A stretch of 64,000 bases of DNA, taken from positions 22,719,759 through 22,783,758 of the forward strand of contig CAIIXF020000009.1 in NCBI GenBank assembly GCA_903813345.2, written 5' to 3'. Both the position numbers and the translations under genes were made by a program. Numbering within the stretch: position 1 is the stretch's first letter; each line of letters starts with the position of its first letter. Source of the DNA: Owenia fusiformis. Its lineage: Eukaryota; Annelida; Polychaeta; Sabellida; Oweniidae. Under the pieces are notes generated by a model, which did no database searches, was not told where the DNA came from, and saw nothing but the letters and a program-made list of their open reading frames with translations. Positions 6,901 through 58,000 of the stretch are shown here, in pieces.

Positions 6901-9900
6901 TGTTATCCATTCTTGGTAGAAACATAATAAGGCATTAACATGATTATCACCACCTGCTACTTGTTACAGACACCAACCGCCAAACACCAACCACCGACTG
7001 TCATCCACAAAAAGTTGGAGACTGAAAACAACCTGTCACAACTTCTGATGAAATAAAAACTATATACCCACCATGTGTTGCCCGCACCATGCTGTAACCT
7101 TTCTCTCCAACTACTGATAGCCTGTCATCTGAGATCTTCAGTTGGGGAGCTGCAAAAATATTACACAAATGAAAAGATGGACATATTGAGAGAGCTGCAA
7201 AAAATAGTTAGAACTGCATTCAATACACTTTTGCAAGACTACACCCATTCAACACTTCATCCTCTCTACATATCACCTTTTAAAACACTTTACCTTCCTT
7301 AGAGAACATCTGTATAACATACTACTAATATTCAACTTTACCCTTACAACAATACCATTAAAATACTACACCCTCTCAACATTACACGCTTTCAACACTA
7401 CACTCTTTCAACACTACCCCTCCCAACATTACACTCAACACTACACCCTTTCAACACTACCCCTCCCAACATTACACTCAACACTACACCCTTTCAACAC
7501 TACCCCTTCCAACATTACACTCAACACTACACCCTTTCAACACTACCCCTTCCAACATTACACTCAACACTACACCCTTTCAACTATGCACCTTCACAAT
7601 ATGTCACCTACCTCTATCATGTACTGCTAACATTACTGACTGCTCAAGGTAGATCCTATACAAGTACAACACTACACTCTCTCAACACTACCCCTCCCAA
7701 CATTACACTCAACACTACACCTTCTCAACAATACACCCTTACAATACGTCACCTACCTCTATCATGTACTGCCAACATTACTGACTGCTCAAGGTAGATC
7801 CTATACAAGTACAACACTACACTCTCTCAACACTACCCCTCCCAACATTACACTCAACACTACACCCTTTCAACAATACACCCTTACAATACGTCACCTA
7901 CCTCTATCATGTACTGCTAACATAACTGACTGCTCAAGGTAGATCCTATACAAGTACAACACTACACTCTCTCAACACTATCCCTCCCAACATTACACTC
8001 AACACTACACCCTTTCATTAATGCACCCTCACAATACATCACCTACCTCTATCATGTACTGCCAACATTACTGACTGCTCAAGGTAGATCCTATACAAGT
8101 ACCCAGGGATAGGTTTACCAGCAGCTTCCACACTCTCATCAAAAGCTTGTCTGTTAGGGGCATGGTGGTCAGGCTCAGCTAGGATATAGCGGTAGCCATC
8201 TTTGTTGTAGGGATGTTCAGTTGGGTAGCTTGTTGGAGCAACATGGATGGCTGCATCCCTAGAGATGGAATGAAATATGAAATGCAGTTATATAACACTT
8301 CTATAGAAAGTTAAGAAGAGTCAATGAAATTTGACATTTTAATTCGAAAGTGTATATAACTCCTCCTATAGGTCACAAAACTCTTAGTTTAAGAGCAATT
8401 TTCTCAGAACTTAGTCATCGACTGAGTACTCCAAGTCCTGTTACACACTTATTTAATATGAAACCGACCTCTGATAGTCGAATGCCTTCAAAGAGACACA
8501 CTATTTTGAGGTACGAAAGGTTTTCTACACAGATTTTCCGAGGCTGAATGAGCAAGTGAAGATATGTAGAGTACACACTGAAGGTTAGCTTAGAAATGAT
8601 ATAATTTGTAAAATAACTCATTGTTAATTCAGATGCTGTGGTAGAAGTAGAAAATAAAGTCTAACGATGTACCTCACCATCAAAGTTCAGTGCTACTGAA
8701 AAGAATTAATAAAAATACCCTTGGACAAAAGGGTGAATAAAATACAGGGAAAAATAGTAATTTTATAGAGGTTTAATACTCTTGAATTGAAGTAGCTAGT
8801 GTATTCAATAAACACGAACTTACCCTTTCTTTGACCGGGTAGAGGGTGCTGATGTTGTATCCCCAACCTGCTTTCTCTTGGTACCCCTCCCCTTGCCTGG
8901 CAAGATAAAAACATGTATTCATTTATTTAGATATAATTTTTCATTTTGTTCAAGGGTAATACATTTTTATGTACTTGGACTGGTTTGATCATTTTTTATC
9001 ACAAAATAATTTTGAACACTGAACTATTTATGTATACTCACAATGAACAAAATCTATATATATAATCACTTGCACGTGGTAAATGTATTTTTAGAATGAA
9101 AAATTTAATATGTTGCCCAACTGAGACAGTAATACTAACATACACCTGGCCTGGAGCATGTTCTACACCAATCCCACACCTGTATGAGACTATATGTATA
9201 AATACAAAGTACTATTTGAACAATCACGACAGATCTCAAACATATAAGTTTTTCTTATTCTAAATTGTCATACATCCTCTATAAGTTATAGAACAGTAAA
9301 CAGACTTCAAATTAACTCTTTGTTGAATACTTACTGTCACTAAGAGATGCTGCTTGCTTACCCTCCTGTGCTTTGATACTAGCTGTACCTGTACGGAGAA
9401 CTTCATAGTTGGGGGCTATCTTTGATAAATCCTACAGGACAAAATACAGAACACATATTATAGAACCCAATGGCAAATAAAGTACTCTTACAATTGATGA
9501 AATAATCCAACCAAAGGAAATCATCATATAGCATCAAAATGTAGATATGTATTTTTGGGTGTCAAGTCAATATTTTATATCATAAATAATTTAATCTAAT
9601 TATTAATTTTTTTTAATTTTAATTAAAAATTTAAATCATATCATTAACTTGAGGGCATAAATTTGAATATACTGAGGGGATGTTACGCATACCTCACATA
9701 TCAGAGAAAAATACATTTCTCCATTTTCCCTCTCTTCACATTTGAATATATCTACATCTTTTGACTGAAATGGAAAACAAACATAATCAAAATGTGAGAA
9801 AACGTTATCATGGCATTGACTGATTTTAGATATTAAGATCTTAAAAGTGGGTGAGCTGATGCAAAATTCAGGGGATGGTTGAGTTCATGCGTTGAGCTCA

Positions 9901-55077: not shown

Positions 55078-58000
55078 ATGCCAAGCCTCTTCTCCGACAT
55101 TCATGATCCTGCAGCAAGAGTGAGGGCTCTTTGTGAGTATGGCTGTAAAGTTGAAGTGGATAAAGCTATCCCCCCTCGTAGATATTTCCGGTCAGGTGTG
55201 GAAATGTTAAGAATGGCTACTCAGTATCATAGTGAAGGAGATCTAGAGAGCGCATTTGTTCTCTACTCAAAATATATTGCGTAAGTTGATCTACTTCACC
55301 TCCTTTTAGGATGGGTTGTTTATGGATGCTGGGCGTAGAGGACCCGGGGTAGGAGAGGGGGTTTTAAGAAAATTTTGAATGAAATAGTTCATTTTATTAA
55401 AGCAACACTGACAATTAACATCCTCATTTTCATATTTTTAAAAACAAGATTATGATAATAAAGAATGAACTTTTTCACATTTAATCATTTTTACATTATG
55501 ATTATTTTCTTCCCCAGTCACAGTCAAATATCAAACTTTATTGTTAATAATTTCAGATTGTTTGTGGAAAAGTTACCAAAGCATCCTGAATATAAAAGCA
55601 CATCACCAGAAGAAAGGGAAAGAAATAAAAAGGTATGTAAAATAAAACATCCCAACCATTCAACACACTACTAGGCCAGCTATTTTACTTTTGTCACAGG
55701 TGTAAACTATAATGCTCAGAAGTGAAAAGACACATGCCTTGTAAAAGATGAAATCTTTGGTAAAGAAACACAGGCTGATTCTTATAATGGTTTAACAGGT
55801 TTCTCTGTGTGAGTGTGTGAAAGTATAAAGAACATATGCTAACACATATATGGATAGTCATATTTTGTTTTATGAATGGGACTTTAATAGAATGTTTTGT
55901 ACACCAGGGCAGTATTTTTACTTTTGATGAAAACAGCCCAGCAATTTTTAATTCTTATTTTAGAAAATGGTCCAACTGTTTCCACTAGCAGAGCAAGTAA
56001 AGAAACAACTGAAAGAAAGGTACAGCAAAGAGGAAGAACTACGCCAGATAGAACAGGTATTTTCAACTATCCTAGCTCTGTAAGGTCATCTCCCCATCTT
56101 TCAAGTAGAGGTTTTGCATGACCTGCACCCATTGAAAAAATGAATATTATCTTGTAAGAACCACTCATTTAACTAACACATGTACATTACGTTTATCTAC
56201 ATTCTGTGACATCATTCCAGAGACGTGTAGAGGAGGAGTTAGCAAAACAACAGGAGCAGGAGAGGATAGCCCAGGAGGAGCAAAGAGCAAATGAGGAGCA
56301 GAGAATCCGTAATGAGCAAGAACGTCAATACAAAATCTTACAAGAACAGGAACTAGAACGTCAAAGACAACTTGAACAAGACAAAGATAAAATAAAAAAT
56401 ATAACTGGTGTAATAGGTGGTGTGACTATAGCTGATGCCGCAGTAAACATTCCGATATCACCTACAGCACCACCTTTAGGGCCGCCCCCAGATATAGACA
56501 ATTCTAGTCTTCCACCTCCCCCTGCTTATGGAGAAGTCTACTCAGGGGAGAGCAAGAGATCAGATATTTATAAAAAGGTACTTCCTGACATACCTAGTCG
56601 AGATTTGAAGCCCGTGAGTCCTAGTGCTCCCCCTGCAAGTGATACTGGTGCTATAACTGCCGGAGCTGGGTAAGTCGCATTTTGGACAGAATAGCCACTC
56701 ATCCATTTCTCATTGGATGAATGAGTCACCAGTGACAAGTTGTGAATTTAAAGATTGTATAGTGTGTCACTAAACTGTAAGTGTACTGTTGACAAGGTAT
56801 AAGAACATGTTTAATATATACAGGTATATGGAACATTAATTGTTTCTGAGAGCTTGTTATTAGTCTGAACATTTCTGAGATTTCTAGTTTATTTATCTTA
56901 ATTTCTACAATTTTTATTGTTAGCTTTAAAAAACTTTTCTTTTGGAATAATAGCAATGTCATTTTAATAGAGACTACAGATATAGTCTTAATCCTTGTAA
57001 TTAATCACTACCACATAATTGCCCATTCCAGGTCTGTTATCCCAGAGTATGATAGAAGTGCCAAGCCCAACCTTGACCACTTCACCAGTGTAGGTGCCAG
57101 CACCAGTAACAAACATGGACTGAGGAGTGTTATTGTACCCCAGGAACTCATGGTGAAGTTCCTCAACATTGCAAGGTCAAACACAGACAGAAATATAGAA
57201 ACTTGTGGCATCCTTGCGGGAAAATTGGTAAATATTAATGTCTATATGTTTTCATGTTTTGTTTGATTCACAATCTGCAAAGTTTTTGGATAACTACATT
57301 GTATGTAAAGATAATTTGAAAAAAGATTACATACCCCCAAACCAATAAATCAATATATAGCACATTACAGTCTTACTTCAGTCCAGTAATGTGTTCAAAA
57401 CTAGTCATATGCTTTCAAGCAGTCTGGTACCCCTAATTCCTGTACTACTATATTGCTCTATTGAATATCTTATCTTGCTTGTAGGCCTGGGTAATGTGTA
57501 AGTCATGTGCTCATCCCCAAGCAGTCTGGTACCCCTGATTCCTCTACTATTGTATTGTTCTATTGAATATTTCATGCTTGTAGGCCAGTAATGTGTTCAA
57601 AATTAGTCATGTGCTGATCCCCAAGCAGTCTGGTACCCCTGATTCCTGTACTACTGCTAATGAGGAGGAACTGTTTGATTACCAGGACAAGTATGATCTG
57701 ATAACACTGGGTTGGATACATGTAAGTTAATAATTTTATTTATTTGGGGATTGGAGTTAATTTTATCTTTAGACACAATATTCACCAATGAAGTGTTCTT
57801 TGGAATTGAATTGCCTTTGATTTTGAAGAAACTTGAAGTGAAAAACTGTTTCCTGCAAATTGAATATTTGATACTAGAAAAATACTGATTCATTTGTGAT
57901 CTATCACTATTGAATTCTAAATAGAGATCCTGCAGATCACCCCTCAGTTGAACATTGTACTACACACTGACCATTTGCTTTCATTTTGTATGGAAAAGGT

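Follow-up and report, generated by a model that had tools for sequence, protein, structure and literature searches.

Whether tandem duplication prefers splice junctions is a testable question, and it is raised directly by a 64,000-nucleotide (nt) stretch of contig CAIIXF020000009.1 (positions 22,719,759 to 22,783,758; guanine plus cytosine content 35%), which is called the window here. In three genes of the window, ASH2L, AAK1 and STAMBP, the edge of an exon is repeated in tandem, along with its splice site, at five places. These arrays are a real, well-formed set of a kind that has already been described in amphioxus as "mirages", and they are dense in the window. We consider it fairly probable that they are junction-anchored minisatellites of this kind, and that their apparent excess at junctions comes mostly from survival and renewal of the arrays and not from preferred initiation of duplication. 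Biased initiation is possible, but it is not needed to explain the data.

Structure of the five arrays

An earlier reading of the sequence (the original prediction) had located five such arrays, three on donors (8047, 10308 and 28437) and two on acceptors (12110 and 57584). Both the positions and this division were confirmed by Tandem Repeats Finder (TRF) and by inspection of the copies. The arrays are as follows, with unit lengths in base pairs (bp), coordinates of the window and a slash at the exon-intron boundary.

7522..8102, minus strand, 145-bp array of 4 copies at the ASH2L donor 8047, GAG/GTAGGT
9912..10322, minus strand, 31-bp array at the ASH2L donor 10308, ATG/GTATGT
12080..12793, minus strand, 60-bp array of 12 copies at the ASH2L acceptor 12110 (or 12104)
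28427..28589, plus strand, 22-bp array at the AAK1 donor 28437, GACAG/GTTAGT
57383..57655, plus strand, array of about 104-bp units at the STAMBP acceptor 57584, TTGTAG/GCC

The content of the units bears out the proposal that the exon edge with its splice site was the seed. About 56 nt of the 145-bp unit come from the end of the ASH2L exon and about 90 nt from the intron, with the donor between them; the intronic part of its array is nested on repeats of 43 and 16 bp in the intron, which reach 7365. Exon end accounts for 15-19 nt (judged by eye) of the 31-bp unit, which also has the motif ATG/GTATGT. In the 60-bp unit the end of the intron, with two AGs, is joined to about 25-31 nt of exon; GTTTCAG follows TAAG in 11 of the 12 copies, giving two competing AGs (12110 or 12104). 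In the 104-bp array the stretch from the exon start (about 71 nt) occurs three times, with two intact TTGTAG acceptors, the real one included.

The unit sizes of 145, 31 and 60 bp given originally are correct, while those of 21 and 100 bp become 22 and about 104 bp. Each array had also been said to fill the adjoining intron. This is correct for four of them, which occupy roughly 55-75% of the intron as worked out from array and junction coordinates, but not for the AAK1 array, which occupies about 22%.

A dispersed repeat (aagtgga...aacacctct...) was seen by eye in two copies, at 12797-12975 and 58430-58610. The first of these adjoins the distal end of the 60-bp array.

Direction of copying and history of the copies

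The exons whose edges form the seeds are listed below with the evidence for each.

8047..8258, minus strand, ASH2L exon, 3' edge the 145-bp seed; 58% identical to human ASH2L and aligned to the last full codon (HDR)
10308..10403, minus strand, ASH2L exon, 3' edge the 31-bp seed; 56% identical to human ASH2L and aligned to the last codon (KIM/KTM)
12031..12110, minus strand, ASH2L exon, 5' edge the 60-bp seed; aligned with human ASH2L, one of the two lines being LKEMCLSALANL (query joined by hand, preceding exon omitted)
28370..28437, plus strand, AAK1 exon, 3' edge the 22-bp seed; exon model
57584..57721, plus strand, STAMBP exon, 5' edge the 104-bp seed; from its third codon onward 68% identical to human STAMBP, with a PDB alignment that spans the edge

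At four of the five arrays (8047, 10308, 12110 and 57584) the exon part lying inside the array aligns with human ASH2L or STAMBP, which indicates that the exon is ancestral and that copying ran from it into the intron. A tblastn comparison with human ASH2L also gave weak matches to the three intronic copies of the 145-bp unit (E 0.09 each).

The copies nearest the exon had been described as the freshest in the 31-bp array, and this is the case: identity to the exon-adjacent copy declines with distance (rho -0.80, 11 copies). Eight consecutive units with an intact core stand beside the exon, followed by decayed units farther out, and the array has a higher-order period of 93 bp. The ranking by distance covers four arrays, the 104-bp array being left out. 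The same decay is seen with weaker support in the 145-bp (rho -0.87, 3 copies), 60-bp (rho -0.64, 11 copies) and 22-bp (rho -0.46, 6 copies) arrays.

Some remote copies are identical to the one at the exon. In both the 60-bp and the 22-bp arrays the unit four away is identical to the exon-adjacent unit, and the 60-bp units at 12348 and 12110 (the functional acceptor) share a 2-nt difference that is exclusive to this pair. Such identity points to block exchange or conversion involving the functional copy. Taken together, the identical units four apart and the 93-bp period suggest that the functional junction copy itself seems to take part in exchange.

Decoy splice sites

The splice motif is kept in 28 of the 33 decoy copies over the five arrays: 3 of 3 in the 145-bp array, 9 of 11 in the 31-bp array (GTATGT), 5 of 6 in the 22-bp array, 10 of 11 in the 60-bp array and 1 of 2 in the 104-bp array. 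The claim that the arrays generate competing splice sites is supported to the extent that many potential sites are present. A further suggestion, that they offer a route to exon lengthening or intron gain, found no evidence: the 31 translated decoys, which are all except the outermost one in the 60-bp and in the 104-bp array, each yield a frameshift or a stop. The nearest decoy of the 31-bp array, at +31 nt, is free of stops and shifts the frame.

The donor core ATG/GTATGT of the 31-bp array is the least variable 9-nt stretch of its unit (1 of 31 placements, with either 8 or 11 copies and with the exon-adjacent copy counted, as in the other arrays). Conservation of the splice core was considered as a mark of decoy function and rejected, being prominent in one array only.

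Frequency of arrays at splice junctions

The rate of occurrence at junctions depends on the gene models, which were obtained from home-made exon models, tblastn, and PDB and Pfam comparison:

ASH2L, minus strand, 22 junctions; exon models and homology
AAK1, plus strand, 32 junctions; kinase part from homology, 3' part from an exon model
STAMBP, plus strand, 15 junctions; exon models and homology
45841-52820, minus strand, EF-hand gene, 20 junctions; exon model

The EF-hand gene, absent from the original prediction, is perhaps of the EFCAB6 type, a name that we assume. The curated total is 89 junctions, snapped with a hand-guided script; for the EF-hand gene and the 3' part of AAK1 they come from the model only, and at least one of the acceptors (47832) is in doubt. 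The earlier figure of five out of about 45 junctions was therefore wrong, the proportion in the curated models being 5 of 89.

Arrays cover 7.2% of the window. They contain 5.6% of the junctions, less than the 8.3% of noncoding bases that they contain, so the argument for a tendency of duplication to begin at exon borders is not supported in the form in which it was made. A near-copy of the surrounding 24 nt was found within 1.5 kilobases (kb) for 4 of the 89 junctions, compared with 8.7% of noncoding positions and 2.3% of exon-interior positions. These four are the junctions of the 145-, 31-, 60- and 22-bp arrays; the fifth, that of STAMBP, fell below the limit for listing, probably through small indels near the edge, and no further copies above threshold were found at the other curated junctions.

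Tests at the level of junctions, and shifts of whole arrays, were rejected as the main test, since they count an array N times if it has N copies and so lean towards no excess. We think that the right test is the count of founding units. Five founding units lie on junctions, where 0.48 are expected for a set of seven arrays (P 8e-6), 0.88 for ten (P 5e-4) and 1.02 for nineteen (P 1.6e-3). When placement is regional, within 1, 2 or 4 kb, the expectation rises to as much as 1.35 and P ranges from 6e-6 to 4.5e-3. It is important to note that this test is post hoc, that the window was picked for the pattern and that three of the five arrays are in ASH2L. The claim that the junction arrays are too many for chance thus survives in the count per founding unit, as a post hoc result, and fails in the junction-level tests.

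The array sets were derived from 53 TRF rows, merged by hand into ten arrays (unit at least 20 bp, at least 2.7 copies) and nine low-copy arrays (unit at least 15 bp). The rows dropped were three short-unit repeats (14, 9 and 4 bp) and a coding repeat at 29690-29895. The set of seven lacks three of the ten: two that lie in transposon-like elements and one that is nested. All of these choices were made after the data had been seen. The coding repeat belongs to AAK1 and is made of CAG/CAA units encoding a long Gln-rich stretch.

The excess of founding units would be expected from biased initiation and from better survival alike, and does not tell the two apart. The alternative named in the original prediction, a faster loss of arrays elsewhere, accounts for the data no less well than biased initiation does.

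Origin of the arrays

In the explanation that we favour, the founding tandem duplication would by chance have spanned the edge of an exon with the splice site there. The exon would stay whole beside one splice site and the surplus copies would land in the intron, to be spliced out; a duplication across a junction would be nearly neutral because its surplus copies are intronic and spliced away. Duplications ending inside the exon without a splice site would be purged. Constraint from both the protein and the splice site would keep the exon-adjacent copy constant, and this copy could re-seed the array by unequal exchange or slippage as the distal copies decay. Such renewal is suggested by the gradient of divergence and by the remote copies identical to the exon-adjacent one. 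The decoys would probably be ignored, as expected from general knowledge of splicing: neither donors nor acceptors can mark out a separate exon when the partner site is missing. The exon-adjacent splice site is presumably the one used.

Several observations weigh against this explanation. The gradient of divergence is drawn from few copies, and distal decay is equally expected where the ends of an array escape homogenisation. Conservation of the splice core outside the 31-bp array is unremarkable, with 6 of 22, 8 of 60 and 59 of 144 placements equally invariant in rough counts that include one of the 12 copies of the 60-bp unit, and the end of one of the six copies of the 22-bp unit, out of register. 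Conservation of the in-array exon part at 10308 and 12110 is modest and covers a short stretch. At AAK1 the homology to human kinases ends before the exon edge at 28437, so the splice site could have shifted into an older array. Circular shifts gave a mean of 6.7 near-copied junctions against the 4 observed (P 0.82; 0.66 to 0.82 with other settings), and when whole arrays were shifted P was 0.23 with the set of ten and 0.027 with the set of seven.

One alternative holds that in this lineage exon-intron borders are favoured starting points of tandem duplication, for instance because replication is stalled there by co-transcriptional splicing, R-loops or a step in composition. The excess of founding units, five where 0.48-1.02 are expected, agrees with it and persists with regional placement. 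The circular shifts of arrays just given are counted among the tests without an excess, the pattern and the array sets were chosen afterwards, and three of the five arrays belong to one gene, which leaves this explanation unlikely. Its broadest form appears decidedly doubtful to us: exon-intron borders would be preferred birthplaces of duplications through a process coupled to splicing or transcription, junctions genome-wide would be continually re-seeded with spare splice sites, and the lineage may be non-cephalochordate. Pure chance, in a minisatellite-rich and junction-dense stretch selected among many windows, is in keeping with the coverage of the window by arrays and with the null junction-level tests. 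Every unit contains the exon edge, so the founders had to span the junction, and the expectation is 0.5 to 1.4 against five; we regard chance as rather unlikely.

Two further possibilities concern the copies themselves. Retention of the arrays as poison splice sites that tune expression via nonsense-mediated decay might explain why 28 of 33 motifs are kept and why every translated decoy gives a stop or a frameshift. Young copies would retain their motifs regardless, unit length and gene vary, distal decoys decay and a conserved core is prominent in one array, all of which makes this function very improbable. Duplication of reads or haplotypes at difficult loci could produce similar arrays in a single assembly, and one amphioxus mirage looked mis-assembled in the draft genome, according to the available text of PMC3087553. 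Here the copies differ among themselves by scattered substitutions and identical pairs are few (3 of 66 in the 31-bp, 1 of 21 in the 22-bp, 0 of 6 in the 145-bp and 2 of 66 in the 60-bp array). This makes an artefact of assembly scarcely credible as an explanation of the arrays, though copy number could still be in error.

Other features of the window

Other minisatellites of the window, at 10472-11535, 59360-60232, 40217-40383 and 42171-42356, have unit sizes similar to those of the junction arrays but, unlike the five, no junction inside. The element at 58792-60269, past the last STAMBP exon identified, has 19-nt inverted ends (58792-58810 and 60251-60269) that are 84% complementary, and carries a CGTC microsatellite and a 162-bp array. 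A second element, perhaps similar, may occupy 10432-11757, between the 31-bp and 60-bp arrays. It carries a 136-148-bp array and a CCAACCA repeat; its 11-nt matching ends, ATGTCACCACC and GGTGGTGACAT, were found by eye and are not among the 25 longest of the 66 inverted pairs there. These two are the transposon-like elements whose arrays are left out of the set of seven.

One neighbouring gene lies within an ASH2L intron, on the opposite strand:

3864-6089, plus strand, intronless gene of the Toll-like-receptor type, LRR and TIR domains, 741 amino acids

A search of Rfam at gathering thresholds gave no match. One repeat motif was not found in a prokaryote collection and another was not found in a viral collection. 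Pattern scans with ASH2L of the prokaryote and viral collections returned 28 and 3 matches, respectively, among which no relative was confirmed.

Comparison with known systems

Introns are said to have been gained by tandem duplication of AGGT, in a model reportedly due to Rogers in 1989 and in later cases. In that process, as in the arrays described here, the tandem duplication includes a splice signal. Here, in contrast, the copies are confined to a single intron next to conserved exons, with no sign of an additional intron or exon. The position of the copies beside conserved coding sequence, and the loss of frame that use of a decoy would bring, speak against a new intron.

A closer parallel is provided by the mirages of amphioxus, minisatellite-like tandem duplications of exon-intron boundaries in globin genes and, earlier, in Adh3; the available text reports normal mRNA, instability of length and a model of intron gain (PMC3087553). 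Mirages of PGBD5 and troponin C are also described in amphioxus (PMC3902484, in the portion available). The units given in these texts measure 10-72 bp in Adh3, 150-160 and 157 bp in the globins BflGb6/BflGb9, and 60 and 108 bp in PGBD5 (PMC3087553, PMC3902484). As far as these portions of the reports go, the match rests on three features of sequence: the repeat unit spans the exon-intron boundary, both 5' and 3' boundaries are affected (here three donors and two acceptors), and many but not all copies keep AG/GT (here 28 of 33). Normal mRNA and length instability are features reported for the amphioxus arrays. A limited search of the open-licence literature, which covered part of the matching papers, many by title and the start of the abstract, found no report of mirages outside amphioxus; this is weak evidence of absence.

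Each array can be regarded as a natural experiment in splice-site choice, with as many as eleven acceptors, or an unbroken run of eight donors, that are almost the same. Most of the surplus copies offer a complete decoy splice site, which the cell presumably has to disregard. Only the exon-adjacent site would presumably yield a usable message, and in the acceptor arrays this site would stand at the end of a series of nearly identical ones. If the density of the window holds genome-wide, the arrays would be a good system for the study of exon definition and for deciding whether junctions act as mutational hotspots or as refuges. Compared with the amphioxus mirages, the present set comprises five arrays in 64 kb, and the direction from exon to intron is backed by human homology at four of the five. 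If the host is not a lancelet, the mirage kind would be wider than in the available text of PMC3087553 and PMC3902484.

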